The translations under genes and the position numbers were made by a program. From assembly GCA_903813345.2 (NCBI GenBank), contig CAIIXF020000011.1, positions 65,001-129,000 on the forward strand: 64,000 bases of DNA, read 5' to 3'. Below are positions 15,275 through 64,000 of this stretch, one piece after another. Source of the DNA: Owenia fusiformis. Taxonomy: Eukaryota; Annelida; Polychaeta; Sabellida; Oweniidae. A model generated the notes under the pieces. The model had not been told where the DNA came from. It did not search any database and saw nothing but the letters and a program-made list of their open reading frames with translations. Each line of letters starts with the position of its first letter. Positions within the stretch are counted from its first letter, which is position 1.

Positions 15275-15356
15275 CTATATATTAAAGCTCTATAGGTGCA
15301 TTAATTGATTACTCTAATATATTAAATTGAAAGAATATATACCTACCTATACTCCT

Positions 15357-15562
15357 CTCGTTGTTCTTGCAGTGCTTCTGATTGTTCTTGTAGTGCCTTC
15401 GATTGTTTTTGTAGTGCCTCCGATTGTTCTTGTAGTGCCTCCGATTGTTCTTGCAGTGCTTCCGATTGTTCTTGCAGTGCCTCCTATTGTTCTTGCAGTG
15501 CTTCCTATTGTTCTTGTAGTACCTCCGATTGTTCTTGCAGTGCCTCCGATTGTTCTTGCAGT
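15357..15562. repeat. 21-bp minisatellite, about 10 copies, copy 1
   Basis: The unit is CCGATTGTTCTTGTAGTGCC plus T, with C/T variants. Because 21 is divisible by three, both strands stay open: VPPIVLA heptads on plus, GTTRTIG-like heptads on minus. No start context, flanking exon or signal supports a protein. Confidence 0.9.
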
Positions 15563-16400: not shown

Positions 16401-16930
16401 CAGGGTGGCCCCAAAAGAAATAGTTTTCTTGTGTATATATTATCCAATGCTTGAAAGTGTGCTATATGTACATGTAGACTTATAGCAGCATCAACGTCTA
16501 ATATAAAGTAATAATGTTCTGTCGAATTCCAAATACATCGTGGAAACATTCCATTGTGATAAATTAATCGACAATCTATCTAGTTACAATCCATCTAGTT
16601 TCTTTAGAATTTTGGGAAGAAATGTGGTGATTTTGAACAAAAATTCTGTGGTTAACCCAATTTTGTTTAAGGAATCAATCTGCAACCATTGAATGATTTC
16701 CTAAAACTACACATATAATGTTTAAACATGCTGATGTAATTAAAATCAAAACATGAAAATCCCCAAATCCCCCCCCCCCCCCATATTGCAGTCTCAGCTA
16801 CATTCAATAGATTTAAGTCCTGGACTCGGTGCAATGTGTGCTGAATCATTCCATAGAGGGTGTTGTTTTCTACGCAATGGGAATGCAGTTTTGGAAACAA
16901 CGCCTTGGTGGAATGAATCACCCACAGTGC
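16401..16930 (-). mobile_element. Remnant of a mariner/Tc1-type transposon, copy 1
   Basis: A mariner-like end, CAGGGTGGCCCCAAAAGAAA, starts at 16401 directly after a TA. Further right, minus-strand reading over 16801-16827 gives SPGLKSIEC, close to the SPDLNPIE block of Tc1/mariner transposases. It is followed by a stop where Trp is usual. A homopolymer C run (16769-16782) disrupts the region. The opposite end was not found, so the extent is a minimum. A chance match remains possible. Confidence 0.35.
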
Positions 16931-17206
16931 ACTGAAGTCTTGGGCTTAAATTACTTTCACACATTGCAAAATATTTTCCACAAAATAACTAAAAGAACAT
17001 ATTTTCAATGAAACGTTTTGCAATGGTCAAGTTGGTAAAGTACCAATTTCCCCTTTTGTTGACGACTGTTTAACAAGTGACTTGAATGCGCAAACTCCCA
17101 TGCACAGTGTCTCGGAATACAGTGGTCTAGAACGCTCAACAAGCCAAGCTAGATGCTATGCCGTAATCAAGAGGTCGTCAGCTCGAGACGTGTCAGCTCC
17201 TTGAGT

Positions 17207-18815: not shown

Positions 18816-18982
18816 GTAGAATTTGAAATCAACACCTAGCTAATTTATAATAAAATAGGATTGGCGTCATTCTCAACAGGATCATTTTGATTTTCTTTTT
18901 CCTTATTTCTTCCGGAACTATTAATGTCACGTAATTACATGTCCACAGGAAAAAACACTTAACCCCTTTCTCTACTTGGAAT

Positions 18983-19035
18983 GGGGGGGGGGGGGTATTG
19001 AGTCTCTGCCGTGGCCAAATGGGAAGGGGGGGGGG
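18983..19035. repeat. Two poly-G tracts, copy 1
   Basis: A 13-G run at 18983-18995 and a 10-G run near 19026-19035 are each followed by ATTGAGTCTCT after one or two bases (TATTGAGTCTCTGCC and CATTGAGTCTCTACG). This indicates a short duplicated G-tract module of about 45 bp. The first tract is one base shorter in the second tandem copy. Confidence 0.8.
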
Positions 19036-19190
19036 CATTGAGTCTCTACGGGACCAAACATTTTCAGAATTATTACAATCTGCAATCGCGCAGATGCGAG
19101 TAGGTAGTTACCAGTTTCACCACCGTTCGGGTCAGATTGCATGGCTGGCATAGTAGAAAGTTCCCTTTAACTTAGATCACATCTGTTTAA

Positions 19191-19589
19191 CCCCCCTATC
19201 ACACCAAACTAGTTCTTACCCGTTCTTGCCAGTCCTACGAAAACGTCGTAAAACGGGCTCAATCTGGCTGTGGTCGGGAAATATGTCTAAAATAATTAGC
19301 TACTTCGTTCTTAAACAGTCTTCAATACGTCCATCTCATTCGCAGTGCGTTCAGGTCGCACCAGGTCGGTGTGCAACGTCGTAAAACGCGTCCCTTAGCC
19401 CCCTATCACACCAAACTAGATCTTACCCGTTCTTGCCAGTCCTACGAAAACGTCGTAAAACGGGCTCAATCTGGCTGTGGTCGGGAAATATGTCTAAAAT
19501 AATTAGCTACTTCGTTCATAAACAGTCTTCAATACGTCCATCTCGTTCGCGGTTCGTTCAGGTCGCACCACGTCGGTGTGCAACGTCGT
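19191..19589. mobile_element. Two truncated left halves of the CCTATCACACCAAACTA element in tandem
   Basis: CCCCCTATCACACCAAACTA starts at about 19191 and again at 19399. Each runs through CGTCGTAAAACGGGCTCAAT to GTGTGCAACGTCGT. The second is cut at 19589 by the junction of the 5.36-kb duplication. Confidence 0.85.
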
Positions 19590-20454
19590 TGTCCAAATTT
19601 TAAGCGTATTGCACTACAAACTAATGATCTAAAATGTCATTCGTGTGCTGTAAAGATATCAGTTGAAGATTAAAAATTACATAAGATGGAGTGTGACAAA
19701 AGAAAACTTCTTTATATACAAGAAGCCAGCATGGAAAAAATGTCGAGAACTTATAATTTTCCAGAAATCGAGGGGTCTTGGGTTAGATCGCCCCTGGGGT
19801 GGACCGACGTATTACGTCAGTGCTTTGCTCCAGATTTTATTTTGTGTTTTCATTGTTAGTGTTTTAATTTTTTGTTTTTGTGAAAAAGCCAATGTTCCGA
19901 GATACCTTGAAAAAAATCATAAGATTCGCTGCATATAATCGCGTAAAAGTTTCGCATAAACAATCGAGAGTTTCTTACTTGAATCGGATGATGATATTCA
20001 AAGATCGGAGTTTCGTTTAAATCTCGTTCAAGCCGAACATCTAGGCACAAGTGCCAAAGGGAAAGGAGCAAAAGTTGTAATAAAACCTAGCAAGAAAAAG
20101 CAAACTCTAGTTGTATACCAGTCATAAGAAAGACAGGCCTCATTTATCGCAAAACGATGATCTAGTAAAACGTGAAATGAAACAATATTTAATGCCAGGA
20201 ATATCACAATTCAGAACCAGAACAACAAACATACTGAATTCGTTACATGTTGAAGACAAAAATCAAAAAATCCCGTATCAGATCCCGTATCAGAAATATT
20301 CCCGGTAATTTCTCTTGAGTTTTACGCTTTTCGTCTAGCACATCTCTACAGGAAGTAAAAAAATCGTTTGGAAAATTGAAATTATTGAAATTATTATCAT
20401 GATTATATCATATTATATCCTCATTATTATCATAATCATTATTATGAAATAAAT

Positions 20455-20635
20455 AGGTTATTGATGGTCGTGATGGAATATGGATTTATTCCTTGAGAAA
20501 ATATGATATTGGCCTCAGAAAATATCATATTGACACTCGGGCTATCGCCCTCGGTCAATATGATATTTTCCTTGGCCAATATCATATTTTCCCTCGGAAT
20601 AAAATCCATATTCCATCCCTCCCATTAAATAACCT
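20455..20635. mobile_element. 181-bp near-perfect palindrome, copy 2
   Basis: Second tandem copy of the foldback at 15094-15274, offset 5,361. Confidence 0.75.
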
Positions 20636-20717
20636 CTATATATTAAAGCTCTATAGGTGCATTAATTGATTACTCTAATATATTAAATTGAAAGAATATA
20701 TACCTACCTATACTCCT

Positions 20718-20923
20718 CTCGTTGTTCTTGCAGTGCTTCTGATTGTTCTTGTAGTGCCTTCGATTGTTTTTGTAGTGCCTCCGATTGTTCTTGTAGTGCC
20801 TCCGATTGTTCTTGCAGTGCTTCCGATTGTTCTTGCAGTGCCTCCTATTGTTCTTGCAGTGCTTCCTATTGTTCTTGTAGTACCTCCGATTGTTCTTGCA
20901 GTGCCTCCGATTGTTCTTGCAGT
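20718..20923. repeat. 21-bp minisatellite, copy 2
   Basis: Same repeat count and variants as 15357-15562. Minisatellites normally mutate fast in copy number, so the identity argues that the duplication is very recent or artefactual. Confidence 0.9.
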
Positions 20924-21761
20924 TTTCTTGATTCTTGCGATATAGTTTTTCCTATGTCTGTTGCATATTGGACAACACAATCAAATCAAACAAATTTCTC
21001 TTATCTCATGGCACATACACTATTTTTCAATGAAAGTTGCTTAACTGAAATTAATTGGCGATAGTGTTCCTAGTGAATGGAGAATAACCCAGTGTATCTT
21101 AGAAAAACCGGTTCAATATCGGCCAGGAAGTATTCGTGTCTATATATTATTAATTCCGTGAAATATCTCCCCTTGGTTGTCTGGAAACATACTCAGCGCA
21201 GCTCCGTTAAATTTGCTTAACTCTCATATATTGATATAGTTGTCTCATAAAACGGGAATATATTGTTTTGATTTACGACATTGATTTACGACATTGATTG
21301 CCTAGCAGCAATTAGCCTTCGGTGGTCGAAACAGCGTAAATATCCTATCTAATAGTGTCATTTTCTCAATTTAATCTCACATCCAAATACTAAGCAATCA
21401 AACTGACACTATTAAGGCCCTTCCTGATCAGTTCTTTGTTTATCAGGATTTTAAGTAAGACTTTTAGGGATTAAGGCTTTATTCTTATTCTAATAAAATA
21501 AAAATAGCGTGGAATGTCGTAAAAATCTTAAAGACGACATTAAAGGGGTTAAATTTTAACGGGGGATCGTTCCAGAATGATTATGTTAGCAAATAGACAT
21601 TTGGTCCGCAAGGGCCTTAATACAAAGTATGTATTATCAAAATTGGAAAAATTAAAATAATTTATTGAGTCAGTAAATAGCAATCTGCAAAAATGTAATG
21701 AAATGGATTTTAGTAATTTCATTTAGACAACTGTAGTTAATGCTATAGTAGCTTAATATTA

Positions 21762-22292
21762 CAGGGTGGCCCCAAAAGAAATAGTTTTCTTGTGTATATA
21801 TTATCCAATGCTTGAAAGTGTGCTATATGTACATGTAGACTTATAGCAGCATCAACGTCTAATATAAAGTAATAATGTTCTGTCGAATTCCAAATACATC
21901 GTGGAAACATTCCATTGTGATAAATTAATCGACAATCTATCTAGTTACAATCCATCTAGTTTCTTTAGAATTTTGGGAAGAAATGTGGTGATTTTGAACA
22001 AAAATTCTGTGGTTAACCCAATTTTGTTTAAGGAATCAATCTGCAACCATTGAATGATTTCCTAAAACTACACATATAATGTTTAAACATGCTGATGTAA
22101 TTAAAATCAAAACATGAAAATCCCCAAATCCCCCCCCCCCCCCCATATTGCAGTCTCAGCTACATTCAATAGATTTAAGTCCTGGACTCGGTGCAATGTG
22201 TGCTGAATCATTCCATAGAGGGTGTTGTTTTCTACGCAATGGGAATGCAGTTTTGGAAACAACGCCTTGGTGGAATGAATCACCCACAGTGC
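21762..22292 (-). mobile_element. Mariner/Tc1-type transposon remnant, copy 2
   Basis: Second tandem copy of 16401-16930, with the C run one base longer (15 Cs). Confidence 0.35.
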
Positions 22293-22568
22293 ACTGAAGT
22301 CTTGGGCTTAAATTACTTTCACACATTGCAAAATATTTTCCACAAAATAACTAAAAGAACATATTTTCAATGAAACGTTTTGCAATGGTCAAGTTGGTAA
22401 AGTACCAATTTCCCCTTTTGTTGACGACTGTTTAACAAGTGACTTGAATGCGCAAACTCCCATGCACAGTGTCTCGGAATACAGTGGTCTAGAACGCTCA
22501 ACAAGCCAAGCTAGATGCTATGCCGTAATCAAGAGGTCGTCAGCTCGAGACGTGTCAGCTCCTTGAGT

Positions 22569-24177
22569 TATTCATTTATGCCAGAGTGTCACGTTTCTGC
22601 ACGCCTAACCATCTACGACGTACAGTGACAAAATATACCGTCGTACATTTAGATGTACGGTGTCACTATTAACCGATTTGAAGCAAAGACAATGATGTAG
22701 GTTTGATGTAAGTTTTTAAACAAATTATCTAAGGAATACATTAAGGATTTCGTGTGTATTCGTTTAGGAAGACATTTAACTTTCTAATAACGCTAAAAGG
22801 TTATTTTATAACACATTTCCTTTGATCATTTCCTCCCTTGTCGTCTAAGAGTGTCGAATATTTTTATGGGAATATGTTTCTTTAAATTACACAATGATGA
22901 AGGTCTGTTGAAGATTTAATAAGTCGTTTTGGCTATAATTTAGAAAATCATAAGTATACAATATCAACTCGAATGTACGTTGTCCCATTGAACTTACTCA
23001 ATTCACAGTTAACCCTAATGCAGGCAACGTATTTTTCATAACACTAACAGGCAGGGGGTCAGATGCATTTAAAATTGAAACTGAACAATTACAGTATTAC
23101 TTCAATTTGATTGAACTATTGAAACTATTGACCATGCATTTTTATGGGAATATGTTTCTTTAAATTACACAATGAAGGTCTGTTGAAGATTTAATAAGTC
23201 GTTTTGGCTATAATTTAGAAAATCATAAGTATACGTTATCAACTCGAATGTACGTTGTCCCATTGAACTTACTCAATTCACAGTTAACCCTAATGCAGGC
23301 AACGTATTTTTCATAACACCAACAGGCAGGGGGTCAGATGCATTTAAAATTGAAACTGAACAATTACACTTTTACTTCAATTTGATTGAACTATTGAAAT
23401 TACTGAGCACTTTCCAGATATGTCATGAACGGGATTTTAAAAGGTCATATTCGATAAGCTAGTATAAATCTATCTTTCAGTGTAACGTAACAAAACATAA
23501 GCACTCAAAAAAGAGGTCAAAAATCACATTTACCTTAGATTTAAAATAATCTGCACAAAGGATACTTGAGCACATTTGTTAAAGATTACTTGTTACTCAT
23601 AAAAACCTTAATGCATTTTGAAATGAAATCATTACATTGTTTAATATTATATCTCATGAATTTCAATAACCGGACAACGTACAGTGCAGTTGACAACGCA
23701 TATTTCTATTTTTTAAATTACAATAAATGCATGAATATTTATTAATCTTCACCCGACCTATATTGTGTAGTTTAGAGAAACATATCCTCATAAGTAAAAA
23801 TATTCGACACTATTAGACGACAGGGGATCGAGGAAATGATCAAAGGAAATGTGTAAAAACAATATTTTCCAACCGACCAATTATATGGGTAGATTGACCA
23901 TGAAAATGAAAAAATCGACCACTGTTCGAAAATCTATTAACGTTATCGGAAACTTAAACGTCTTCCTAAACGAACAAATCAAACATGAAATCCTTAATGT
24001 ATTACTTAGGTATTTTTTTAAAAAACCTACGTCAACCCTACATCACTGTCTTTGCTTCAAATCGGTTAATAGTGACACCGTACATCTAAAGTGTTCGATG
24101 GCGTATTTTGTCACTGCACGTTGTCGATGGTTAGGCATGTTCTGGTGCAAATTAAATGAAGGCGTTATATTCAAAGT
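22569..24177. mobile_element. Long inverted-repeat element (~1.6 kb), copy 2
   Basis: Second tandem copy of 17207-18815, including the internal ~275-bp duplication. Confidence 0.75.
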
Positions 24178-24551
24178 GTAGAATTTGAAATCAACACCTA
24201 GCTAATTTATAATAAAATAGGATTGGCGTCATTCTCAACAGGATCATTTTGATTTTCTTTTTCCTTATTTCTTCCGGAACTATTAATGTCACGTAATTAC
24301 ATGTCCACAGGAAAAAACACTTAACCCCTTTCTCTACTTGGAATGGGGGGGGGGGGTATTGAGTCTCTGCCGTGGCCAAATGGGAAGGGGGGGGGGCATT
24401 GAGTCTCTACGGGACCAAACATTTTCAGAATTATTACAATCTGCAATCGCGCAGATGCGAGTAGGTAGTTACCAGTTTCACCACCGTTCGGGTCAGATTG
24501 CATGGCTGGCATAGTAGAAAGTTCCCTTTAACTTAGATCACATCTGTTTAA

Positions 24552-24759
24552 CCCCCCTATCACACCAAACTAGTTCTTACCCGTTCTTGCCAGTCCTACG
24601 AAAACGTCGTAAAACGGGCTCAATCTGGCTGTGGTCGGGAAATATGTCTAAAATAATTAGCTACTTCGTTCTTAAACAGTCTTCAATACGTCCATCTCAT
24701 TCGCAGTGCGTTCAGGTCGCACCAGGTCGGTGTGCAACGTCGTAAAACGCGTCCCTTAG
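24552..24759. mobile_element. Truncated left half of a CCTATCACACCAAACTA element
   Basis: Tandem-copy equivalent of 19191-19398. It abuts the full-length element that starts at 24760. Confidence 0.85.
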
Positions 24760-25560
24760 CCCCCTATCACACCAAACTAGATCTTACCCGTTCTTGCCAG
24801 TCCTACGAAAACGTCGTAAAACGGGCTCAATCTGGCTGTGGTCGGGAAATATGTCTAAAATAATTAGCTACTTCGTTCATAAACAGTCTTCAATACGTCC
24901 ATCTCGTTCGCGGTTCGTTCAGGTCGCACCACGTCGGTGTGCAACGTCGTATAACACGTCCCTTAGTCTAGAAGGTCATCATGACCTGATTACAGAACGG
25001 TATGATCGTCATCGTCGTCGATTGAAAATTCTAAAATCACCTTCCCGTCTGAGAACGTTCATGAAGTTCGTGAATAGACCTTAGAAAGTTGCAGCTACGT
25101 TCATTCCGTTCACAAACAGTTTAAAACCAGTTTTGAAGAACGCAGTGGCAACTTGTTTTGGGTGATAGCTATATTTTTGCTAACTCGTCCATCAGCAGTC
25201 TTAAATACGTTCTTAATCAGTTTAAACTCGTTTGCAATTAGTTCTACCTAGTTCTCAATACGTCCTCAGACAGTTCAACTCGTTGTTGAAACATCCCTAG
25301 TAGGATTGAAGTACGACGGTTCCGTTCGTATTAAGTCCAGCTCGTCGTTGGTACGTTGTCACTCGTTCTAATTGTAGAACGTATCGACCACGAGAACATT
25401 TTGAGCATGTTCTAAGTTCTAGAGGACCTACCCGTTGGAGTACGTTCGATGAAGTTTGTAAATAAACCCCAAACGGTTCTAAGTACGTCCAGTCCGTTCG
25501 TACACAGTTGAAGCCCGTTTTGGAGAACGTAGTGAAAACTAGTTTGGTGTGATAGTAGGG
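24760..25560. mobile_element. Full-length CCTATCACACCAAACTA element, 801 bp
   Basis: It begins CCCCCTATCACACCAAACTA and ends AGTTTGGTGTGATAGTAGGG, like the copy at 3816-4600, with similar internal order. It includes the internal end-like motif GGGTGATAGCTAT near 25160. It starts in the second copy of the 5.36-kb duplication and extends past its right edge. Confidence 0.85.
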
Positions 25561-33919: not shown

Positions 33920-36590
33920 CCCATAAGGCTATCCCAAAGCTTCTACATTTCGGGCCTCTGAGGGGTATGCCAAAGCTAATATTTTGGAGCCTCTGAGGGG
34001 TATGCCAAAGTTAATATTTTGGAGCCTCTGAAGGGTATGCCAAAGCTACTAGATTTCGGGCCTCTAAATTTTTGGCTCCTGAATTTGTATGCCAAAGCTA
34101 CTAGATTTTTGACTTCTAAATTGGTATGCCAAAACTGCTCGATTTTGGGCATCTAGAGGTATGCCAAAGCCACTGGATTTGGGGCTTCTGAAGGGTATGC
34201 CAAAGCTATTAGATTTTAGTCTCTAAATTGAATGCTAAAGCTACTAGATTTGTGGCCTCTGAATGGTATGACAAAGCTACTAGATTTGAAGCCACTCAGG
34301 GTTATCCCAAAACTACTAGATTTTGGGCCTCTTGAGGAATGCCAAAGCTACTAGATTTGGGGCCTCTGAAGGGTATGCCAAAGCTTCTACATTTTTGACC
34401 TCTGAGGGGTATGCCAAAGCTACTAGATTTTGGGGAATGCCAAAGCGATTAAATTTGGGTTTGCCAAAGCTACTAGATTTCGGGCCTCTGAGAGGTATGC
34501 CAAAGCTGTTTGATTTAGGACCTCTGAAGGGTATGCCAAAGCTACTAGATCCTGGGCCTCCGAAGGTTATGCCAAAGCTACTAGATTTTAAACTTCTTAA
34601 TTTGTATGCCAAAGCTACTTGATTTAGAACTTCTGAAGGGCATTGCAAAGGTACTAGATTTAGTGCTTCTGAAAGATATGCCAAAGCTACTAGATTTAGA
34701 GCCTCTGAGGGGTATGCCAAAGCTGTTTGATTTCGGGCCTCTGAGGGGTATGCCAAAGCTACTAGATTTTGGGGAATACAAAAGCGATTTAATTTGGGGC
34801 CTCTGAAGGGTTTGCCAAAGCTACTAGATTTCGGGCCTCTGAGGGGTATGCCAAAGATACTTGATTTGGAACCTCTAAACTGGTTTGCCAAAGCTACGAG
34901 ATTTAGAGCCTCTAAGGGGTATGTCAAAGCTGTTTGATTTTGGACCTCTGGAGGGTTTGGCAAAACTTTTTTGGGCCTTTGAAGGGCTGTCAAAGCTACT
35001 AGATTTGAAGCAAATCAAAGCTATGCCACAGCTACTAGGTTTTCGGCTCTTGGGGTATACCAAAGCTACTACATTTCAGACTTCTGAATTGCTATGCCAA
35101 AACTACTAGAATTTGGGCTCTGAAGAAAATGCCAAAGCTACTAGATTTGGAGCCTCGGAGGGGTATGCCAAAGCTACTAGATTTGGGGCCTCGGAGGGGT
35201 ATGCGAAAGCTACTAGATTTGAAGCAACTTGGGCCTATACCAAAGCTACTCGCGATCGATTTTTGGGATATTGGAGTAAGCCAAAGCTACTAGATTTGGG
35301 GTCTCTGAAGGGTATGCAAAAGTTACTAAAATTTGGGCATCTGAGGGGTATGCGAAAACGACTAGATTTGGGGCCTCTGAAGGGTATGCCAAAGCTACTA
35401 GATTTTTGGGTATGACAAAGCTACAAGATTTTGGGACTCTGAAGAGAATGCCAAAGCTATAAGATTTGGGGCCTCTGAGGGGTATGCCAAAGCCACTTGT
35501 TTAGAGCCTCTGGAGTGTATGCAAAGGCTATTTGATTTGGGGCCTCTGAAGGGTATGGCAAAGTTACTAGATTTGGGGTTTGTAAAGGAGTATGCCAAAG
35601 CTACTAGATTTGATACCACTCGGAGCTATTACAAAATTACTAGATTTTAAATTAGGCCTCTTGGGGTATACCAAAGCTTCTAATTTGGGGCCTCTGAAGG
35701 GTATGCCGGACTACTAGATATAAATTAGGGGTCTCGGAGGGGTATTCCAGGCCAAAGCTAGTACATTTTAAACTTCTAAATTGTTATGCCAAAGTTACTA
35801 CATTTGGGGCCTCTGGAGGGTTTACCAAAGCTACTAGATTTGGGGCCTCTGAGGGGTAAGCCAAAGCTACAAGATTTGGGCCTTTGAAGGGTATGCCAAA
35901 GCTACTCAATTTTGGGACTCTGGGGGTATGCTAAAGCTACTAGATTTAGACTCCTGATTTGATATGCCAAAGCTACTAGATTCGGGGCCTCTAAAGGGTA
36001 TCTCAAAGCTACTAGATTATGGGCCTCGGAGGGGTATGCCAAAGCTACTAGATTTGAAGCCACTCAGGCCTATGCCAAAGCTATTCGCTTTTGGGTCTCT
36101 TGGTATATGTCAAAGCTACTAGATTTGAGGCCTCTGAAGGTTATGCCAAGATAATAGATTTTTGGCCTCCGAAGGATACTCAAAAGCTACTAGATTTTGG
36201 GGCTCTGATGGGGCATGCTAAAGCTACTATATTTGTAGCCATTCAGGGCTATCCCAAAGCTACTAGATTTTGAGGTATGCAAAGGCTACTAGGTTTTGGG
36301 CCTCCAAATGGAATGCTAAAATTATTAGATTTGGGGCATCTTATGGGTATGCCAAAGCTCATAGATTTAGGGCATTTGGAGGGTATGCCAAAGCTACTAG
36401 ATTGGGGCTTCTGGGGGTATACCAAAGCTACTAGATTTAGGGCCTCTGGAGGGTATGCCAAAGCTACTAGATTCTGGGCCTTTGGGGGTATGCCAAATCG
36501 ACTAGATTTGGGGCCTCTGGAGGGTATGCCAAAGCTACTTGATTTAGGGCCTCTGAAGGGAATGCCAAAGCTACTAGATTAAGGGCCCCT
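33920..36590. repeat. 36-bp minisatellite, about 74 copies
   Basis: The unit is GGGTATGCCAAAGCTACTAG, ATTTGGGGCCTCTGAA. Variants with TTTGGGG, TTAGAGC or TTCTAAATT appear in blocks. The period of 36 (12 codons) keeps several frames open on both strands, up to 225 codons (34316-34993, minus). The frames drift with indels and have no gene-like ends, so no protein is claimed. Confidence 0.95.
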
Positions 36591-37304
36591 GAGTATATTC
36601 TGAATTGGTATGCAATATCGAACCGAACGTTCAGTCAGTTTTAGAGCTGGCATTTCGTTGTTTTAGTTTAATTTATGGCTTGAAACAGTTTTGTTTGGGT
36701 TCATCTAGGTATAGTAGTGTCATTCGATTCATTACACTTGATTATCAGCTAGTTTAATTTGTTTGAATTTAACATTTCAAGTCAATATTGCATACTAGTA
36801 TACGGGATTTTGAATGTGAACTTCATTTTGCTATCTTTAAACTTACTAATTAAAATAGTTTTAAATCTATATAGATTCCCATTTTAGGCATTTTGAGTCG
36901 AATTAACTTGATCAGATTTGGACAATCGATGCAAATATGAGCATTTGCTATGGTTAACAACTTGTGTCTAGATTCTCTTGTCCTCGGAGACTTGATTGTC
37001 ATCGATAAGACGGGGATGGAGGGGTATAGGCGGTAATTACGCGCTGAAGAGCGACAGAGCTATTTGTCTTCGATCGATTTAAGTCCGCCTTTTGCAAAAC
37101 TCGATTTTGCCCACACCCTTTTAAATAAGAAATAACTCCGAGGTAGGCTAGTCGCATAGAAAATAGTAGTATTTAGGAAACCACGAACCGACCAGAATCT
37201 GTATGCGAATCGCTCTACTCTTCTGCAGATATTTATCATGTTTTCTACAAAAGACCATGAAAGCTACAATAAGGTCTTAGTCGCGTCAAAACTGTTATCT
37301 AATT
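36591..37304. other. Single-copy spacer between minisatellites
   Basis: No exon, RNA or element end was recognised. Confidence 0.5.
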
Positions 37305-38745
37305 ATTTGTAATATTGTAAATCATTCGCAGTTCTGTAAAACCATTCGCAGCAATACTGTAAAATCATTCGTAGCAATACTGTAAATCATTCGCAGTTCT
37401 GTAAAATCATTCATGGAACCGTAAAATCATCCGCAGTACTTTAAAATCATTCGCAATACGGAAAGATAATTTGCAGTTCTCCAAAAGCATCTGTAATACT
37501 GTGCAATCATTCGTAGTACTACTAAGTTATTTGCAACACCATATAATCATTTGCAGCACTGTAAAATCATTCGCAGGACTGTTAAATCATTTACAGTACT
37601 GCAAAACGTATTTGCAATACTTTAAAATCATTTGCAGTACCATGTGATCATTTATAGTACTGTAAAATAATTTGCAGTACTTTAAAAATCATTCGCAGTA
37701 TTGTAAAATAATTTACATTATCATATAATCGTTTGCAGTACTCTAAAATCATCTAAAGTACTGTAAAATTATTCGCAGTACTGTAAAATCATCTACAGTA
37801 CTGTAAATCATTTGCAGAACCATTTAATCATTCGCAGAACTTTATGATTATTCGCAGGACTGTAAAATGATTTGCAGTACCATATAATCATACGCAAAAC
37901 TGTAAGATCATTATCTACATTACTGTAAAATCATTTGCAGTACCATATTATCATTCACAGAACTGAACAATCATTTACAGAGCGGTATCATTCAAAATCA
38001 TGTAAAATCATTTGCAGTGCTGTAAAATCATTTGCAGTACTGTAAAATCATTTGCAGTACTGTAAAATCATTCGCAGTACTGTAAGATAATTTGCAGTGC
38101 TGTAAAAACATTTGCAGTGCTGTAAAAAAATTGCTGTACTGTAAAATCATTTGCAGTACTGTAAAATCATTCGCAGTACTGTAAGCTCATTTGCAGTACT
38201 GTAAAATCATTTGCAGTACTGTTAAAGCATTTGCAGTACTATACTGTAAAATCATTCGCATTACTGTAAAATCATTCGCATTACTGTAAAATCATTCGCA
38301 GTACTGTAAGATCATTTGCAGTACTGTAAAATCGTTTGCAGTACAATATTATCATTCGCAGAACTGAACAATCATTTACAGTACTGTAAAAACATTTGCA
38401 GTACTGTAAAATCATTTGCAGTACTGTAAAATCATTTGCAGTGCTGTAAAAACATTTGAAGTACTGTAAAATTATTTGCAGTGCTGTAAAATCATTCGCA
38501 GTGCTGTAAACACATTTGCAGTACTGTAAAATCATTCGCAGTGCTGTAAAAACATTTGCAGTACTGTAGATCATTTGCAGTACTGTAAGATCATTTGCAG
38601 TACTGTAAATCATTTGCAGTACTGTAAAATCATTCGGAGTACTGTAAGATCATTTGCAGTACTGTAAAATCATTTGCAGTACTGTAAAATCATTCCCAGT
38701 ACTGTAAGATCATTTGCAATACTGTAAGATAATTTTCAGTACTCA
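37305..38745. repeat. 20-bp minisatellite, about 72 copies
   Basis: The unit is GCAGTACTGTAAAATCATTT with T/C and single-base variants. Homogeneity increases to the right (38000-38700), as expected if recent expansion occurred there. The minus-strand ORF at 38281-38613 is repeat translation. Confidence 0.95.
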
Positions 38746-53282: not shown

Positions 53283-53933
53283 CAGGGTGACACAAAAAAT
53301 GCCACCTACTAATTTTGGAATAACTTTCTCAATAATGAAGGAATCTCCGTCATTTATTTATGTGTAGATAGTGTGTTCAGTGGAAAGAAATTGTTGTACT
53401 TGCAGGGGCGTAGCCAGCTTTCAGTCAGGGGGGGGTGCGATCGCCAAAAATTTTTCAGTTTTCGGTCAGGGGGGGGTGCGATTTTGCCATAAGCAACACA
53501 AAAAAATTAAGATTTCTTTTGAATTTTACAAAAATTGATGCAACTTCCTTCAAAATTGGGCTAGAAGCTTCAAATAAAAAGCATTTTAAAGCTCTTTTCT
53601 ACCTCTATCCAATGGTCATATTTTCAAAGGTTATGGGGGGGGGGTGCGATCGCACCCATCGCACCCCCCCCCTGGCTACGCCCATGACTTGTATAGCATC
53701 AACAACTTTGTGATTAAGAGATATCACGTTTTCTGTCAAAGTACACTCATCAAAACTACAATTTTCTGTAATTGGGATTTCTGTCTCAAATTTAATGAAC
53801 TGATTCGCTTTATTGGGTAGATTAAAAAAAAAGACATATTTTTAATTTACATTTTTGAGTGATTTTGTGTGAAAGCATGCCTCCAGGAAAAGGTATTCCA
53901 AAATTAGTGAGTGGCATTTTTTGTGTCACCCTT
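53283..53933. mobile_element. 651-bp mariner-type MITE with TA target duplication
   Basis: The left end CAGGGTGACACAAAAAATGC follows TA. The right end is its inverted copy with a mismatch at the terminal base, followed by TA. The match continues over CTAATTTTGGAATA. A different element (53405-53685) is nested inside. Confidence 0.85.
53405..53685. mobile_element. Compact GGGCGTAGCCAG element nested in the mariner-type MITE
   Basis: The ends GGGGCGTAGCCAG and CTGGCTACGCCC are inverted. G-runs (GGGGGGGGTGCGATCG) and C-runs lie just inside each end. It serves as the uninterrupted reference for 46213-47408. Confidence 0.85.
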
Positions 53934-55182: not shown

Positions 55183-55352
55183 TTACATACATTGATCCTG
55201 TCCCCTTTGACGTGGAGCTGCCTTTACGATATCATCAACACGCAGAATCATCTCAGCCGCCTCTGCAGCGCTAATAACCACTTGGCGCTTCACCTGGTAG
55301 GACTCTGTGATGCCTAGCTGTTCCATGTCACCTACCTCTCCTTGGTTCATAT
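55183..55352 (-). CDS. CCT2: CCT2 (T-complex protein 1 subunit beta), last coding exon
   Basis: CCT2 is one of eight subunits of the cytosolic chaperonin TRiC/CCT, which folds actin, tubulin and WD-repeat proteins with ATP. The minus-strand exon completes a split codon and then encodes 55 residues, including [20 protein letters not shown] and [14 protein letters not shown], before a TAA at 55183-55185. This closely follows the conserved CCT2 C-terminus (GITESFQVKRQ...EAAE.ILRVD.I.KAAPR). A standard acceptor (ACTTTCAG) precedes it at 55353. The very end (QRGQDQCM) is not conserved with vertebrates, as usual. Phase matches the upstream 62-nt exon exactly. Earlier exons (~460 residues) lie beyond the window. 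Confidence 0.97.
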
Positions 55353-55394
55353 CTGAAAGTATAGTTATGAAAAAATATTAACAAATCAAAAGAC

Positions 55395-56850
55395 GGATGG
55401 ATGGAGGACAACTCACAACAGAACACAGACCACATATTAGAAAAAGACTCACAACTCAACAGAACACAGACGACATTATAGAAAATTTGCAACTCATACA
55501 AGAACAGACCACATAGTAGCAAGATTCAAAACAGAACACAGACCACATAGTAAAAGGACTCGCAACTCAACAGAACACAGACCACATAGTAGAAAGACTC
55601 GCAACTCAACAGAACACAGACCACATAGTAGAAAGACTTGCAACTCAACAGAACACAGACCACAGAGTAGAAAGACTCGCAACTCAACAGAACACAGACC
55701 ACATAGTAGAAAGACTCGCAACTCAACAGAACTCAGACCACATAGTAGAAAGACTCTTAACTCATACAGAACACAGACCACAGAGTAGAAAGACTCGGAA
55801 CTCAACAGAACACAGACCACAGAGTAGAAAGACTCGTAACTCATACAGAACACAGACCACATAGTAAAAAAGACTTGCAACTCAACAGAACACAGAGTAA
55901 AAAGACTTGCAACTCAACAGAACACAGACCACATACTAGAAAGACTCGTAGCTCATACATAACCGGACCACAGAGTAGAAAGACTCGCAACTCAACAGAA
56001 CACAGACCACAGAGTAGAAAGACTCGCAACTCAACAGAACACAGACCACATAGTAGAAAGACTCGCAACTCAACAGAACTCAGACCACATAGTAGAAAGA
56101 CTCTTAACTCATACAGAACACAGACCACAGAGTAGAAAGACTCGGAACTCAACAGAACACAGACCACAGAGTAGAAAGACTCGTAACTCATACAGAACAC
56201 AGACCACATAGTAAAAAAGACTTGCAACTCAACAGAACACAGAGTAAAAAGACTTGCAACTCAACAGAACACAGACCACATACTAGAAAGACTCGCAACT
56301 CACAACAGAAAATTGACAACATATTTAAAGACTTGCAACTCAACAGAACACAGACAACATACTAGAAAGACTCGTAGCTCATACATAACCGGACCACAGA
56401 GTAGAAAGACTAACAAATCAACAGAACAGAGACCACATACTAGAAAGACTCGCAAATCAACAGAACAGAGACCACAAAGTAGAAAGACTCGCAACTCATA
56501 ACATAACACAGACCACATAGTAAAAGGACTCGCAACTCAACAGAACACAGACCACATAGTAGAAAGACTCGCAACTCAACAGAACACAGACCACACAGTA
56601 AAAGGACTCGCAACTCAACAGAACACAGACCACATAGTAGAAAGACTCGCAACTCAACAGAACACAGACCACAGAGTAAAAAGACTTGCAACTCAACAGA
56701 ACACAGACCACATACTAGAAAGACTTGCAACTCAACAGAAAACAGACCACATAGTAAAAAGACTTGCAACTCAACAGAACACAGACCACATAGTAGAAAG
56801 ACTCGTAACACATAACAGAACACAGATCACATAGTAGAATGACCCGTAAC
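55395..56850. repeat. 39-bp minisatellite in the CCT2 intron, about 37 copies
   Basis: The unit is AGACTCGCAACTCAACAGAA, CACAGACCACATAGTAGAA. Variants TCATACAGAAC and AGAGTAAAAAG mark a higher-order repeat: a ~347-bp block starting near 55500 recurs near 55850. Because 39 is 13 codons, frames on both strands stay open (up to 128 codons); none is a gene. On the CCT2 sense strand the unit is T-rich with CTTTCTACTATGTGG. Confidence 0.95.
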
Positions 56851-58186
56851 TCATAAAATTACACAGAGACCCAATAATAGATTTAGCTTTGTAGATTAAT
56901 ATACAGATATCTCAATTCATCAACTGTACTCTACTGGGACTGAACTATTTCTAAATGATAATAAGTGGTCACTGCTTTGTAACTTTAAGGCAGGATCAGA
57001 TCTATAGGGGGCGACAAAATTACAAGCAACTTGTCTTATTGACCGACCAATCTATTTCTTACAATATCAAATACAATATCTCCAAAATGATTCACAATAT
57101 GTAATAAATTAGTGAAGTTATTAATGATTCAAAGTGCAAAAGTGGGTGAAAAATGTTTAAATTCTCCCAAATAATAAGAATGGTAACCATTCTTATAGAA
57201 AAATAATATATTATTGTAAAAATCTTTAGTTTTCCTGGAATAAAGTATGCACTTTTGTGATTTTTAGAAAATAGACATGACAAGGAATGAGATGAGCCAA
57301 ATATTCTAAAATTGGAATAATTTTTTGTTTAGCCTGCTCGCTATCTCTGATTCTCTCTAGTTAACTAAGGCTCAACATTTTGATAATTGGTCTTTCTTCT
57401 AAGTCCCAAATAGAGACAAGAAGTTGACAACCCCTATGAAAAGGCATCAACTTGACATTTTCAGTTATATTCTAGACAAGAAAAAAGATGCATTTATAAG
57501 CCTTTTATATGAAATGATGGTGCATCCACTGATAAATCAAATGATTTTCTGTATATGTGTTTAGTAATCATTATTGATGTACAGCATGGCTTGTATGTTT
57601 TACAAGGGTTTAATGTCTTTTTATTTGATTTTCTGCTGAGTGAATATTTGCTGATGCACCATCTTGAAATTGTGGAATACTTTAATCACTTAACTGCATT
57701 GATTTTTTGTTAAAAGTAAAATGCTTCGGAAATTGCTATAGATTATGTTATGAATGTGATACACCTGATAATGTACTCAACACAATATTACAATGAGAGC
57801 TTAGCTCCCTAATTTCAGTACAATAATAATTTAATACAATAGAAATTGATACTTTGACAAATCTAACAGCATGAAGGACAAAAATACAAAAAAATACAAA
57901 AATACTAATCTTTATTTTAAATTCATTTTTAACAAAAGTCGCTTTCTATATTTGTTTACACATGAACATTTGAGGGAAGCAATTACATATTGAAAATTCA
58001 AAGTAGAAAAACACAAAAGACTGACAAGAATCAAAGGGCATTGTGGGAATCAGCTCACCAAAAGTGATCAATTAAGAGTCTGGATGCTTGCAAATGGGGC
58101 TGGGATTTGGGGGGGGGGGGTGATTGTGGTGTGCCAAACCACACCACAAGAGGACGACAAACCCTTTTGAGACTCATCTTTATATA

Positions 58187-58906
58187 ATACACCCTTGGTA
58201 TACGCAGCTAACGAAAATTGACCGGTACGGGTCAAAAGCTCTCTCGAGAACAACTGTCTCATTTTCACGAAAACTTTTATTTAGTACTTCTAACATATAA
58301 GATCTATTTTTCCCCATCAAGGTATGATGTAAATGACATGCTATTTACATCTTGTGAGTTTCAACGACGCGCGTTTGATTTAATAAAAAATGCCAAACTT
58401 TGTGACAAAGAATTTCATCCTGCTTGCAGAAAGAAGACGGACCGGTTCGGGGCAATCTGCTTGCAGCGAGAAGACGGACCGGTTCGGGGCAATAGCTGAT
58501 GAAATTCTTTGTCACAAAGATTGGTATTTTTTATAAAATCAAATGCGCGTCATTGAAACTCACAAGATGTAAATAGCATGTCATTTACATCATACCTTGA
58601 TGGGGAAAAATAGATCTTATATGTTAGAAGTACTAAATAAAAGTTATCATGAAAATGAGACAGTCGTTCTCGAGAGAAAAGAGCATAAATGCGCATTTAG
58701 AGAGTTTTGGTCTGTTTAAACATCTGTAAAAAATTGGGGTACTTAAAAGCATCGGGAGGCATCATATATTTCAAATTAGACACGAGGAAGTCAATATTGA
58801 GCAAGTTATGGCTGTTTTAAATTCAAATAAAACCGTTAACCCGTACCGGTCCAGCTTTTGACCCGTACCGGTCAATTTTCGTTAGCTGCGTATACCAAGG
58901 GTGTAA
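58187..58906. mobile_element. ~720-bp foldback element in the CCT2 intron
   Basis: The ends ACACCCTTGGTATACGCAGC and its exact inverted copy lie at 58189 and 58885-58904. The arms match for ~230 bp (AAAATTGACCGGTACGGGTC; CATCAAGGTATGATGTAAAT). The centre has a 37-bp direct duplication (AGAAGACGGACCGGTTCGGG twice, 58433-58496). The right arm carries about 160 bp (58690-58850) missing from the left arm. Confidence 0.9.
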
Positions 58907-58974
58907 TATAAGGAGATAAGTTTATCTCTGAATTCTAGGATATTTCCCCTTTTTCCATACCACTTTCTTTAATC

Positions 58975-59098
58975 AGACTGATGTATTCAGAAAATACAAT
59001 TCCATTTCTTATTTGCTTTAGCCCACTTTGCAAAACTTCTGTGCGGAAAATACAATTTCATATCTTATTTGCTTATAACCCACTTTGCGAAACTTATG
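58975..59098. repeat. ~62-bp direct duplication
   Basis: GGAAAATACAATTTCATATC and GCCCACTTTGCAAAACTT-like blocks appear twice in tandem with several differences. Confidence 0.75.
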
Positions 59099-59789
59099 TT
59101 CTTTATTATTAAATTTGTGTTTCTTCGTATATTCACTGAATGATCATTGCTCATGCAAAGCAGTCATCACATCAATATTCCAGATATAATCCATTTTACT
59201 GTTAATTGGCCATAAGATGTCAAAGAGGCTGAGAAATGGCACTGCAAAAGGAGTGCTCTTGATCCCAGAAAGCAACAGTCAATAGAATTTACTCCCATAA
59301 TGCAACATTATTAGTTGGGTGCAAATCTATCTTCGATATTAAGTAGGTGCAAGTCTATTTTTCATAACTCTCGAGAATTGAGGAGCCCACTGTAATACAT
59401 GTGGTCAGCATAACTAGATTTAGATAAGGTGAGAAACAAATGTGTTTGATTGCAGATAAAACAATTGTGACATTCATGAATGGAATTGTGACATGTATTG
59501 ATTAAATTGCGACACACTCAAATTAGTTTGATGATAGAGATGGAATCTATGATTTTATTTTACGCCAGAAACGGCAATAAATCTCTGATTACTTGATTTC
59601 CTTACGTCTAAATTTCTCTGCTATCTTAATCTAATGAATGCTATTCACTTCGAAAGCTAACTTTCTCAAGTTGTAGGAAGCAGAAGGATAAAAATGAGCT
59701 AAAAATAAACATACATACACCTAGGGCATCATTATTCAATATACTTTCTCTACAAAGGGAAGGGTTTCTTGTATTTCTAAATCAGAGTA

Positions 59790-61190
59790 AAATCCCCTCC
59801 CTCAATCAATGCTTCCCTCTCCCATTTCCTCCCCAATCATTACTTCCCTTTCCCATATACTCTCCAAATCAATGCTTCTCCAATCCACATACACCCCAAT
59901 CAATGCTCACCTCTCTCATATGCTCCCGCAATCAGTGCTCCCCACTTCCATATACTCCCCTTTCCTATATTCTCCCCCAATCATTGCTCCCTCATCCATA
60001 TACTCCCCAAATCAATGTTCCCCTTTCCAATATACTCCCCAAACCAATGCGCCCCTTTCCCATAAACTCCTCCAATCAATGCTCCCTGCTTCCATATACT
60101 CCCCCAATCAATGCTCCCCTTTACCATATACTCCCCATATTAATGCTCCCCTTTACCATATACTCCCCATATCAATGCTCCCCTCACCCATATACTACCT
60201 AAATCAATGTTCCCCTCTCCCATATACTCCCCTAATCAGTGCTCCCCTCACCCATATACTACCCAAATCAATACTCCCCTCACCCATATACTCCCCTAAT
60301 CAATACTCTCCTTTCCATAAACTCCCCAATCAATGCTCCCTGCTTCCATATACTCTCCCAATCAATGCTCCCCTTTACCATATACTCCCCATATTAATGC
60401 TCCCCTTTACCATATACTCCCCATATCAATGCTCCCCTCACCCATATACTCCCCAAATCAATGTTCCCCTCTCCCATATACTCCCCTAATCAATGCTCTC
60501 CTTTCCATATACTCTCCCAATCAATGCTCCCCTTTACCATATACTCCCCATATTAATGCTCCCCTTTACCATATACTCCCCATATCAATGCTCCCCTCAC
60601 CTAATGCTCCCCTTACCTAAATCAATGTTCCCCTCTCCCATATACTCCCCTAATCAGTGCTCCCCTCACCCATATACTACCCAAATCAATGTTCCCCTCT
60701 CCCATATACTCCCCAAATCAATGCTCTCCTTTCCATATACTCCCCAATCAATGCTCCCTGCTTCCATATACTCCCCCCCATCAATGCTCCCCTTTCCCAT
60801 ATACCCCTCCTTTCAATGCTCCCCGCTTCCATATACTCCACAATCAATGCTCCCCGCTTCCATATACTCCCCAATCAATGCTCCCCTTTTCCATATACTC
60901 CTCCTTTCAATGCTCCCCACTTCCATATAATCCCCAATCAATGTTCCCTTTTCCATATACTCCCCAATCAATGCTCCCCTTTCCCATATACTCTCCCAAT
61001 CAATGCTCCCCACTTCCATACACTCCCCAATCAATGCTCCCCTTTCCCATATACTCCCCCAATCAATGCTCCCCACTTCCATATAATCCCCAATCAATGC
61101 TTTCCTTTTCCATATACTCCTCCAATCAATGCTCCCCTTTCCTGGCCGGGGCCATATTCTCCCCCAATCATTGCTCCTCTCACCCATATA
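59790..61190. repeat. 31-bp pyrimidine-rich minisatellite in the CCT2 intron, about 45 copies
   Basis: The unit is CCAATCAATGCTCCCCTTTC, CCATATACTCC. The plus strand is strongly C/T-rich and the CCT2 sense strand purine-rich. Higher-order blocks (TTACCATATACTCCCCATAT twice, then CACCCATATACT) occur at ~60110, ~60365 and ~60530. With a 31-bp period three consecutive units cycle through all frames. Stop codons are scarce, so ORFs up to 226 codons arise that only translate the repeat. Confidence 0.95.
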
Positions 61191-62845
61191 TTTCATTCAG
61201 TGAAAATCCCTTTTGCGATATTGTTCATTTAAGACATATCAGAATGATATATCAATCCAGAGATAAGATACATTGAAACATTCTTGGCATTTGCATTAAA
61301 CAAAGTATCAAACTGTAAAGGATTTATCAGATCATACTCCATCAGGTTAAATATATAAACTCACATAAATCTTACTTTTAATACAAGCATGTAATTTTAA
61401 TTGCTTATTTGAGTAAGCTGTAGATTAAAGCGTCACAGCTAGGTGCTTATTTAAACTAAATGAGTCAGTCAAATTTCCTAAGGCTGGCAGTTTAACAACA
61501 GGTAACTGAAAGTGAGAACTTCCAGGGATTTGTAATTCTGGAAATAGCATCAAAAGTAACAAGAGTTCTTCATAATGTTTGTAAATCAAAAAAAGAAAAA
61601 AAATAGTTTCAAGGAACTTTGCAACTACAGTATTCAAATTGTTCAATATTATCCAATTGCTTTTGCTGTTGTGTCTTCAATTTACCTGTTGTCAAAAATC
61701 TAATTATAAAGAGACAGCTAGACCAACATTTCTAAAGATAACAGGAATAAAGAATCCAGACATAATAAGCAATTGCTACTTGCCATATGTTTTGCCGTTT
61801 TGCCATATGTTTACTTATTGTTTGGGTTATCATACTCATCAGATTAAAGCAGCACCCAGCTACATGCCTACTCTGATGAAGCATTTTTAATATTAGGAAT
61901 CAATGTAAAAAACTAGTAGTAAATTTAGTATGTCTCATCAGAAGGTCACTGCAACCTGAATCAAAAAGTCTTCACATTATGAGGTTTCTTAATATAAGCA
62001 AATCACTAGAGAGAATAAGTTGACTCAAAGAGTCTGCAATTGATTGCCGAGGCCATGTTTTCTTGCTTTTCTTTTTTATTATAAGCGAGGTGGAGATGTA
62101 TGGCAGTTTTATTAGAATTTTTGACTGCAGACTTTCCTAGAACAACATAAATTTTGGTAATAATAACAATCGGAGAAAATGTGTCAATGCCTGATGGTCT
62201 TTCTTTTTTGTGATTTATCTATTGTACATGAATGGGTGACACAGATTGTGTATATTCCAGTATAATACATGAGATTCATGCAACAACACGTTGTCAATTT
62301 ATAGCTTTAATACAACATGATTGTGTATGCTGTATCACTAGCATTTTCAATAAATAAATAATTCAAAATAGACTTGTTTCACATGTAATACAAGTAGAAT
62401 GAGCCTTCTATCACCCAAGCAATGAACTAATACAAACCACAAATAGAGTTGGAACAAATAATATCATTTTTTATATGATCAAATCTATTTTTCAAAAGGA
62501 ATAAACATGAGTGCAGGTTATGATAAAACAATTACTGAAAAGCTCTGTTTACTTAGGTAACTTTAAAATTGCATTCATTACTTTTACTGACTAAATCAGA
62601 AATAGCTTCCCCTTCCACATAGTCTAAAGAGACATCTATTTTCATTACTATGTTGCAATTTATCTCTTGCACCATGCAAATAGCTAACCCAATTTATTTG
62701 GGAATCGTGATAATACATGTACGTGTATATTTCTTAATTCATCTCTTTATTTTATTGCATACATATCCTTATCCTACACTTAGTGTACTAAATGTATAAT
62801 AACATGAAAAAATAAATTTGATATTTATTGGCAAAATGAATATCT
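61191..62845. other. Single-copy intronic DNA
   Basis: It is AT-rich, with no exon or element recognised. A similar phrase (AGATTAAAGC...CAGCTA) occurs near 61421 and 61842, perhaps a diverged short repeat. Confidence 0.4.
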
Positions 62846-62946
62846 GGAGGCTATCGTAATGATATACATGTACTCCGGGCGGAGGATATCGTGACGATAT
62901 ACTCCAGAAAACCCAATATGCGGAGGATATTGTGACGATATACTCC
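62846..62946. repeat. Three near-palindromic ~25-bp repeats
   Basis: GGAGGATATCGTGACGATAT followed by ACTCC occurs at 62881-62905 and, with one change, at 62922-62946. A longer variant (GGAGGCTATCGTAATGATAT, then ACATGTACTCC) is at 62846-62876. Each folds on itself around CGTGACG or CGTAATG. Confidence 0.8.
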
Positions 62947-63035
62947 GATTGTTGATTTCCCGCCAAATGGACTCTATTTGGCATGAAATTCATTTTACAA
63001 TGATATTATACATTCAGTACACTCCTTGTAAATGT

Positions 63036-63181
63036 AGGATAATCCTATGATTTTTTCAGAATAATCATTTTAATCTACTCGGTGATATTGATATATGCAC
63101 TCATTCGCTTTGCTCTCTCGTGCAGATATCAATATCACCTCGTAGATAAAAATGATATTCCTCAAAATCATAGGATATCCT
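63036..63181. mobile_element. 146-bp palindromic foldback element
   Basis: AGGATAATCCTATGATTTT at the left is matched by AAAATCATAGGATATCCT at the right. Inner GGTGATATTGATAT pairs with ATATCAATATCACC around a loop containing CATTCGCTTTGCTCTCTCG. The type resembles the palindrome at 15094 in style but not in sequence. Confidence 0.75.
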
Positions 63182-63352
63182 ATAAATATAACATATACAT
63201 GTATACAGTGCCTTAAACTGACTTTCAAATACTTCAAATTTAAATATTATTAAAATGATTATTGACTATTTTTTTTATTAATCTTATGCAGTGATTCGAC
63301 TGTTTTCTAAAATTCATAACATAGCTTAACAATTACTTGTAGGATTCAACAT

Positions 63353-63426
63353 GCCCCTGTGGCCTAATGGATAAAGGCGCTGGACTTCTGAATCAGATTT
63401 TGATAGTTAATCCAGCTGTCGGTGGT
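63353..63426 (+). pseudogene. tRNA-Arg(TCT)-like sequence, probably degenerate
   Basis: GCCCCTGTGGCCTAATGGAT resembles the 5' half of tRNA-Arg, with an A-box match (TGGCCTAATGG). The loop CTTCTGA gives anticodon TCT. The anticodon stem has mismatches, the B box is degenerate (AGTTAATCC instead of GGTTCGAATCC), and the 3' acceptor strand does not pair with GCCCCTG. It is therefore a tRNA pseudogene or the head of a tRNA-derived SINE. Its 3' edge coincides with the left edge of the CCT2 exon array. Confidence 0.6.
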
Positions 63427-63481
63427 ACAAGTTCAGCACTGTAGTATTATAAATGGGAATATAAAGATAACATAGACTTAC

Positions 63482-63543
63482 CTAGTCCCATTGTGTGTTT
63501 GCCCTCTGTATGGCAAGCACGTAGTTGTGATACAAGTTCAGCA
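63482..63543 (-). CDS. CCT2: CCT2 penultimate coding exon, array copy 1 (closest to the last exon)
   Basis: The minus strand reads one base completing a codon, then 20 codons (AELVSQLRACHTEGKHTMGL), then one base shared with the last exon. This corresponds to the CCT2 segment [20 protein letters not shown] just before the C-terminal block. Acceptor ACTACAG and donor GTAAGT are both intact. Phase joins exactly to 55352. Because 62 is not a multiple of three, inclusion of two copies would shift frame. Confidence 0.93.
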
Positions 63544-63586
63544 CTGTAGTATTATAAATGGGAATATAAAGATAACATAGACTTAC

Positions 63587-63648
63587 CTAGTCCCATTGTG
63601 TGTTTGCCCTCTGTATGGCAAGCACGTAGTTGTGATACAAGTTCAGCA
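63587..63648 (-). CDS. CCT2: CCT2 62-nt exon, array copy 2
   Basis: Identical coding sequence and intact splice sites (acceptor complement at 63649-63650, donor complement at 63581-63586). Which copy is spliced in cannot be told from sequence. Confidence 0.85.
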
Positions 63649-63691
63649 CTGTAGTATTATAAATGGGAATATAAAGATAACATAGTCTTAC

Positions 63692-63753
63692 CTAGTCCCA
63701 TTGTGTGTTTGCCCTCAGTATGGCAAGCACGTAGTTGTGATACAAGTTCAGCA
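63692..63753 (-). CDS. CCT2: CCT2 62-nt exon, array copy 3
   Basis: The donor is GTAAGA instead of GTAAGT. There is one exonic change, ACA to ACT, still Thr. The acceptor is intact. Confidence 0.8.
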
Positions 63754-63796
63754 CTGTAGTATTATAAATGGGAATATAAAGATAACATAGACTTAC

Positions 63797-63858
63797 CTAG
63801 TCCCATTGTGTGTTTGCCCTCTGTATGGCAAGCGCGTAGTTGTGATACAAGTTCAGCA
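63797..63858 (-). pseudogene. CCT2: CCT2 62-nt exon, array copy 4, acceptor AG lost
   Basis: The base at 63860 turns the acceptor AG into GG on the minus strand, so this copy lacks a canonical 3' splice site. The coding part has one change, CGT to CGC, still Arg. The donor is intact. Confidence 0.8.
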
Positions 63859-63901
63859 CCGTAGTATTATAAATAGGAATATAAAGATAACATAGACTTA
63901 C

Positions 63902-63963
63902 CTAGTCCCATTGTGTGTTTGCCCTCTGTATGGCAAGCACGTAGTTGTGATACAAGTTCAGCA
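63902..63963 (-). CDS. CCT2: CCT2 62-nt exon, array copy 5
   Basis: Coding sequence as in copy 1 with intact GTAAGT donor and ACTACAG acceptor. The intron downstream of it (toward copy 4) carries the variant AATAGG and leads to the broken acceptor. Confidence 0.85.
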
Positions 63964-64000
63964 CTGTAGTATTATAAATGGGAATATAAAGATAACATAG

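Follow-up and report, generated by a model that had tools for sequence, protein, structure and literature searches.

A tandem array of the penultimate CCT2 coding exon with its splice sites in Owenia fusiformis

The array and its copies

The window analysed here is a 64,000-nt stretch of Owenia fusiformis DNA (CAIIXF020000011.1), and its last 579 bases form a tandem array at positions 63422-64000. TRF gave a period of 105, 5.5 copies, 97% matches and no indels. In the minus-strand sense, each 105-bp unit is composed of a 62-nt exon and a 43-nt spacer with GT...AG ends. Five full exon copies, named A to E in transcript order, are followed by a partial copy, F. The array continues past the window end, and the copy number is therefore at least five. 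The units lie head to tail, have high identity and are present in at least three copies (TRF), as in a minisatellite.

63964-64000, minus strand: last 37 nt of the spacer or intron preceding copy A; identical to the array consensus; reaches the window end
63902-63963, minus strand: exon copy A; consensus; AG acceptor and GT donor intact
63797-63858, minus strand: exon copy B; acceptor AG changed to GG at 63860; one synonymous change, CGT to CGC
63692-63753, minus strand: exon copy C; one synonymous change, ACA to ACT; donor position +6 changed from T to A at 63686
63587-63648, minus strand: exon copy D; consensus
63482-63543, minus strand: exon copy E; consensus; the whole unit E equals unit D
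63422-63438, minus strand: partial copy F; the first 17 nt of the exon with one mismatch; acceptor intact, without a donor
63439-63481, 63544-63586, 63649-63691, 63754-63796 and 63859-63901, minus strand: the five complete 43-nt spacers
63353-63420, plus strand: degenerate tRNA-like relic; Rfam tRNA score 20.2 bits (E 0.2; gathering score 29, not reached)

A preliminary description of this DNA had claimed a tandem exon array of at least five copies, which TRF and a copy-by-copy layout confirmed. The composition claimed for the unit, a 62-nt exon plus a 43-nt spacer with GT and AG ends adding up to 105 bp, was reproduced, and the start, placed there at 63426, is corrected to 63422. It had also claimed that the exon carries both splice sites. 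This holds for the donor GT in all five full copies (GTAAGT in four and GTAAGA in C), but the acceptor is lost in B and the donor is absent in F. The acceptor AG is intact in five of the six copies (A, C, D, E and F) and reads GG in B. All spacers start with GTAAG; four of the five complete ones end with ACAG, and the one between A and B ends with ACGG. The spacer downstream of copy A has two private changes, one of which destroys the acceptor of B. Copy F, with an AG acceptor and no donor, is a dead end. Because B has lost its acceptor and F is truncated and has no donor, not all copies are kept functional.

Across the five full copies the exon has two changes in 310 bases, both synonymous, and the encoded peptide is identical. 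The spacers have three changes in the 252 bases visible (five full spacers plus the 37-nt piece). All five changes in units A to E are private to a single unit, and D is the same as E; judged by these sequences, the array appears to be young. A single base of the exon can be changed in 186 ways, of which 48 are synonymous, so that two of two would be synonymous by chance about 7% of the time. That both changes are synonymous gives a faint hint of a constraint that may act on each copy. Copy divergence giving different isoforms is absent from the five full copies. Since the copies encode one peptide, they cannot diversify the protein.

The tRNA-like relic adjoins the downstream edge of the array, one base apart. 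It was missed by ARAGORN and by Rfam at the gathering score, and it may be the head of a SINE. With up to 3 mismatches allowed, the window contains a single occurrence of its 22-nt core, TGTGGCCTAATGGATAAAGGCG. Because the array edge falls within copy F beside this relic, the native boundary between exon and intron cannot be seen at this end. When the doubled unit was used in a blastn search for further unit copies or a remnant of the native downstream intron in the window, the 40 best matches consisted of the array and of matches of 11-15 nt.

The 3′ end of CCT2 and the predicted splicing outcomes

CCT2 is required for folding actin and tubulin. With the frame set by homology, the array exon reads AELVSQLRACHTEGKHTMGL followed by the first base of an Asp codon. 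With an E limit of 10, this 21-residue peptide matched six PDB sequences, with E values between 0.0028 and 0.049, and all six are TCP-1 beta. The terminal CCT2 coding exon, which the preliminary description does not mention, was found together with the array copies by tblastn with human CCT2, at E = 4.9e-19. In this search the matches in the window with E < 0.01 were confined to residues 456-535.

55183-55352, minus strand: terminal CCT2 coding exon, including the TAA stop; acceptor CTTTCAG directly before AT
55353-63481, minus strand: last intron if copy E provides the donor; its coordinates give 8,129 nt

The final G of the array exon and the first AT of the terminal exon form the expected Asp codon, so the phases match. 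After this codon the terminal exon encodes 55 residues and then TAA, with no frameshift or early stop. The joined 77-residue peptide matched TCP-1 beta at 1.5e-28 and aligned across 74 of its 77 residues. Outside TCP-1 beta, the strongest match was to a reconstructed ancestral group II chaperonin, at 1.9e-13; gamma came first among the other CCT subunits, at 3.2e-11. Among the 60 PDB sequences listed (80 matched), the best seven were all TCP-1 beta. The Pfam family Cpn60_TCP1 was matched with 64.2 bits at a cut-off of 34.3. The peptide is closer to TCP-1 beta than to other chaperonin subunits, which bears out the identity that had been assigned to the exon from its letters. The 3′ end of CCT2 is contiguous here, with the penultimate exon, the phase-matched terminal exon and the stop. 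Since the terminal exon shares the strand of the array, has an AG acceptor and fits in phase, the array sits within the CCT2 gene or a close copy of it. Strand, phase and place are fixed by the terminal exon: the array would be the penultimate coding exon, with 8.1 kb between it and the last one.

The last intron contains two more minisatellites, at 55410-56853 and 59797-61142. The former has a 39-bp unit in about 37 copies and ends, in transcript sense, 57 nt before the terminal exon; this edge is close to the expected branch point of that exon.

Transcripts were assembled in silico from a stand-in for the end of the upstream exon, 0 to 5 array copies and the terminal exon. Over this range CCT2 reached its normal end from single-copy inclusion only, which supports the earlier claim that functional CCT2 comes from one-copy splicing alone. 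With zero copies the product reads SYEPRRGR and then a stop. With at least two copies, the first is followed by VLNLYHNYVLAIQRANTQWD, and the second copy then ends in a stop codon made up of its three final bases, as had been claimed for this copy. A retained spacer gives GLGKSMLSLYSHL and then a stop; here, too, the in-frame TAA that had been claimed was recovered. Partial copy F gives AELVPPTAGLTIKI and a stop when used directly, and VLNLYHRQLD and a stop when used after one full copy. In the CCT2 array, homologous exons stand in tandem, and including two of them disrupts the reading frame.

The position of the stop differs with the number of copies. In the two-copy mRNA, nt 126 is both the end of the stop and the site of the last junction (distance 0 nt). 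The last junction lies 62 nt downstream of the stop with three copies, 124 nt with four and 186 nt with five. Junction-dependent decay usually acts on a stop more than 50-55 nt upstream of the last junction. Because the two-copy stop falls exactly at the last junction, the two-copy mRNA should escape classical junction-dependent decay.

Spacing and RNA structure

Mutually exclusive tandem exons are reportedly enforced by spacing in alpha-tropomyosin and alpha-actinin. The branch-point consensus is YTNAY, and the CCT2 spacer matches it at the adenines +20 and +32 from the donor and nowhere else. The available portion of PMC7969005 proposes a limit of about 50 nt from donor to branch point for simultaneous assembly. 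Any adenine of the 43-nt spacer falls under this limit, by which adjacent copies should not be joined. Copies two units apart are separated by 148 nt (43+62+43). Because copies at least two units apart are at least 148 nt apart and unblocked, spacing alone cannot enforce one-copy use. From the portion seen of PMC4463651, human pre-mRNAs with a 43-nt intron do get spliced, so the block on joining neighbours may not hold; the short human introns described there often have unusual features, for example being G-rich in 12 of 22. The preliminary description had proposed mutually exclusive use of the copies. This is plausible for neighbours, with branch points at 20 and 32 nt, but copies at least 148 nt apart are unblocked, and only a single peptide is encoded, which sets the array apart from the mutually exclusive exon clusters known so far.

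Two of the systems named in these sources can be set beside the array, as far as the text available from each goes. In OGDH exons 4a/4b (PMC7969005) a donor-branch point distance below about 50 nt is likewise held to prevent the joining of adjacent exons. However, OGDH has an exon pair that gives distinct proteins, whereas the CCT2 array has at least five copies and one peptide, and its spacing is ineffective two units apart. The 43-nt ESRP2 intron, among other ultra-short introns (PMC4463651), has the same length of 43 nt and GT-AG ends. Those introns are single and conserved, and 12 of 22 are G-rich; in contrast, the CCT2 spacer is AT-rich and repeated and is a predicted intron.

A selector sequence was looked for in the last intron. 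The longest complement to the spacer there (G-U pairs allowed) was 12 nt, and 19 of 20 shuffled spacers reached at least 12 nt (range 11 to 17 nt). Selector sequences in the last intron were rejected on this basis.

The predicted fold places every donor within a hairpin in which AATGGGA of the exon is paired with TCCCATT of the spacer. Four folds, of the unit or of the donor region, gave z from -0.32 to -1.25. The fold of the unit was no better than that of shuffles, 35 of 200 being at least as stable. For three 59-nt donor regions, shuffles folded at least as well in 33, 72 and 25 of 200 cases. Mean donor openness was 0.33 versus a control mean of 0.37, with 84 of 200 shuffled-spacer controls at or below the array value and 42 of 200 folding as well. 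As evidence that RNA structure controls the array, the predicted fold was rejected, since both folds and donor openness lie within the shuffle range.

Origin of the array and alternative readings

Tandem repeats are common in this window. Merged arrays with a period of at least 10 and a length of at least 100 bp number 24 and cover 18,786 of the 64,000 bp (29%); three pairs among the 24 are counted twice, being halves of a 5.36-kb duplication. The CCT2 exon array is one of the 24, and two others are those in the last CCT2 intron.

We consider it fairly probable that the array is a young minisatellite grown from a unit made of the whole penultimate CCT2 exon and 43 nt of fused intron, with interchangeable copies and a surviving gene. 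With 29% of the window in tandem repeats, a young minisatellite that captured an exon is the simplest and best account. The expansion would have taken in a short exon, the penultimate coding exon plus 43 nt, by chance, and the spacer would be the start of the downstream intron fused to the end of the upstream intron. The gene would survive if enough transcripts contained a single copy, spliced to the upstream exon on one side and directly to the terminal exon on the other. Adjacent copies would be hard to join, as their spacing suggests, with the branch point too near the donor for U1 and U2 snRNPs together. Truncated CCT2 and a somewhat lower output would result if distant copies were joined or if the dead-end copy F were used. 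The array is probably tolerated rather than selected.

A buffer or decoy role, which had also been suggested, is possible, and no test result points to selection. We regard as distinctly unlikely that the 105-nt lattice is a self-limiting splicing device, in which an occupied copy excludes its neighbours so that one of many is used, and which makes the gene robust to loss of a single copy or lets copy number set its output. Any functional role exceeding a tolerated expansion would be a proposal only.

The edge of the array bears on a different reading. In it, the functional exon would be located upstream of the window; the array would have been inserted into the last intron, or have expanded there later, and its copies would be pseudo-exons (decoys) that are normally skipped. 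An array edge within copy F, one base from the tRNA-like relic and with no recognisable native intron, fits an insertion or a rearranged edge, and one acceptor is gone. However, the donors are strong, GTAAGT in four of five, and the coding frame is intact in all five full copies; we judge this reading rather unlikely. The copies themselves speak to the assembly. An assembly error, giving a wrong copy number or an assembler-made array, would fit the identity of D and E and the 5.36-kb tandem duplication with 0 mismatches in the same window, which is recent or assembly-made. Private changes occur in units A, B and C, three of the five, where an assembler loop would not be expected to make any, and they speak for a real array; no indels interrupt the 105-bp register, and tandem arrays are common across the window. 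Such an error is in our view quite improbable. That just the last two coding exons lie within the window would also suit an unused CCT2 duplicate, a dispensable copy in which the array was free to expand. This is decidedly improbable, because the terminal exon has kept its acceptor and has no frameshift or early stop, 74 of 77 residues align with TCP-1 beta, and both array exon changes are synonymous.

Regulation has been considered in two forms. The preliminary description had suggested that extra inclusion regulates CCT2 through nonsense-mediated decay. In favour of such regulated unproductive splicing, which would route CCT2 mRNA to decay, two or more copies lead to a stop, and three or more place a junction at least 62 nt behind it. 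The suggestion is weakened by the two-copy mRNA, whose stop at the last junction falls short of the 50-55-nt rule, so that only three or more copies would provide a suitable junction; regulatory structure is not better than shuffles, and one copy is without an acceptor. We find it very improbable. Tandem exons with an asymmetric phase also recall Dscam1, and a cluster in which competing RNA structures select one copy would be the corresponding reading here. In the available portions of PMC6071210 and PMC8042237, Dscam1 resembles the present case in having homologous exon arrays from which one exon is to be used. It differs in that the CCT2 array has no selector-like complementarity above chance and no peptide diversity. 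With a longest complement that nearly all shuffled spacers reach, folds and hidden donors matched by controls, and all copies encoding one peptide, selection of this kind at CCT2 is scarcely credible.

Repeats that involve exons are known from human DNA. As described in the part seen of PMC2812944, human segmental duplications contain internal tandem repeats that overlap exons and exon-intron borders. The likeness lies in tandem repeats within genes that alter exon/intron structure and splicing, with long units preferred. The minisatellites in that part have units of 30 bp on average, and their usual effect is a longer exon or a new intron, whereas the 105-bp CCT2 unit is a complete exon with splice sites. 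A search of open-licence PMC texts found no report of a comparable CCT2 array, which is a weak test of its absence from print; a similar case was not found in the portion seen of PMC9013439.

Tandem exon duplications are usually discussed where the copies have diverged into alternatives, and the CCT2 copies are practically identical. With at least five copies of an asymmetric exon 43 nt apart, nearly all wrong joinings destroy the product. If the array is what it appears to be, it would offer a natural experiment on what restricts the spliceosome to a single exon, and on the extent to which a repeat can grow through an essential gene before it does harm. If copy number differs between individuals, it would provide a natural dosage series.

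Further searches of the window and of contig sets gave the following. Nine of the 40 longest stop-to-stop frames were scanned against Pfam for other genes, and none scored above the cut-off. Among the other 31 frames, 28 overlap tandem arrays, 23840-24178 duplicates a scanned frame, and 53414-53710 and 61585-61887 remain. A 24-nt exon pattern had 0 matches in genome_contigs and 0 in viral_contigs. With the terminal-exon peptide, none of 28 pattern-matched stretches was confirmed in viral_contigs. In genome_contigs 67 of 410 stretches were confirmed, 65 in archaea and two in bacterial bins (L010 and L058). Their best segments were 43-58% identical, and we take them for archaeal-type chaperonins, presumably.

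The 5.36-kb tandem duplication noted above lies at 14232-19589 and 19593-24950. Over 5,359 aligned columns its halves have 0 mismatches and 2 gap openings (99.96%). It includes internal minisatellites, and could be either very recent or an assembly duplication. Long minisatellites are present at 34085-36593, 10159-12129 and 37319-38743, with units of 36, 23 and 20 bp, respectively. Short, partly palindromic repeats of the type GGAGGATATCGTGACGATATACTCC were seen by eye at 62840-62950.
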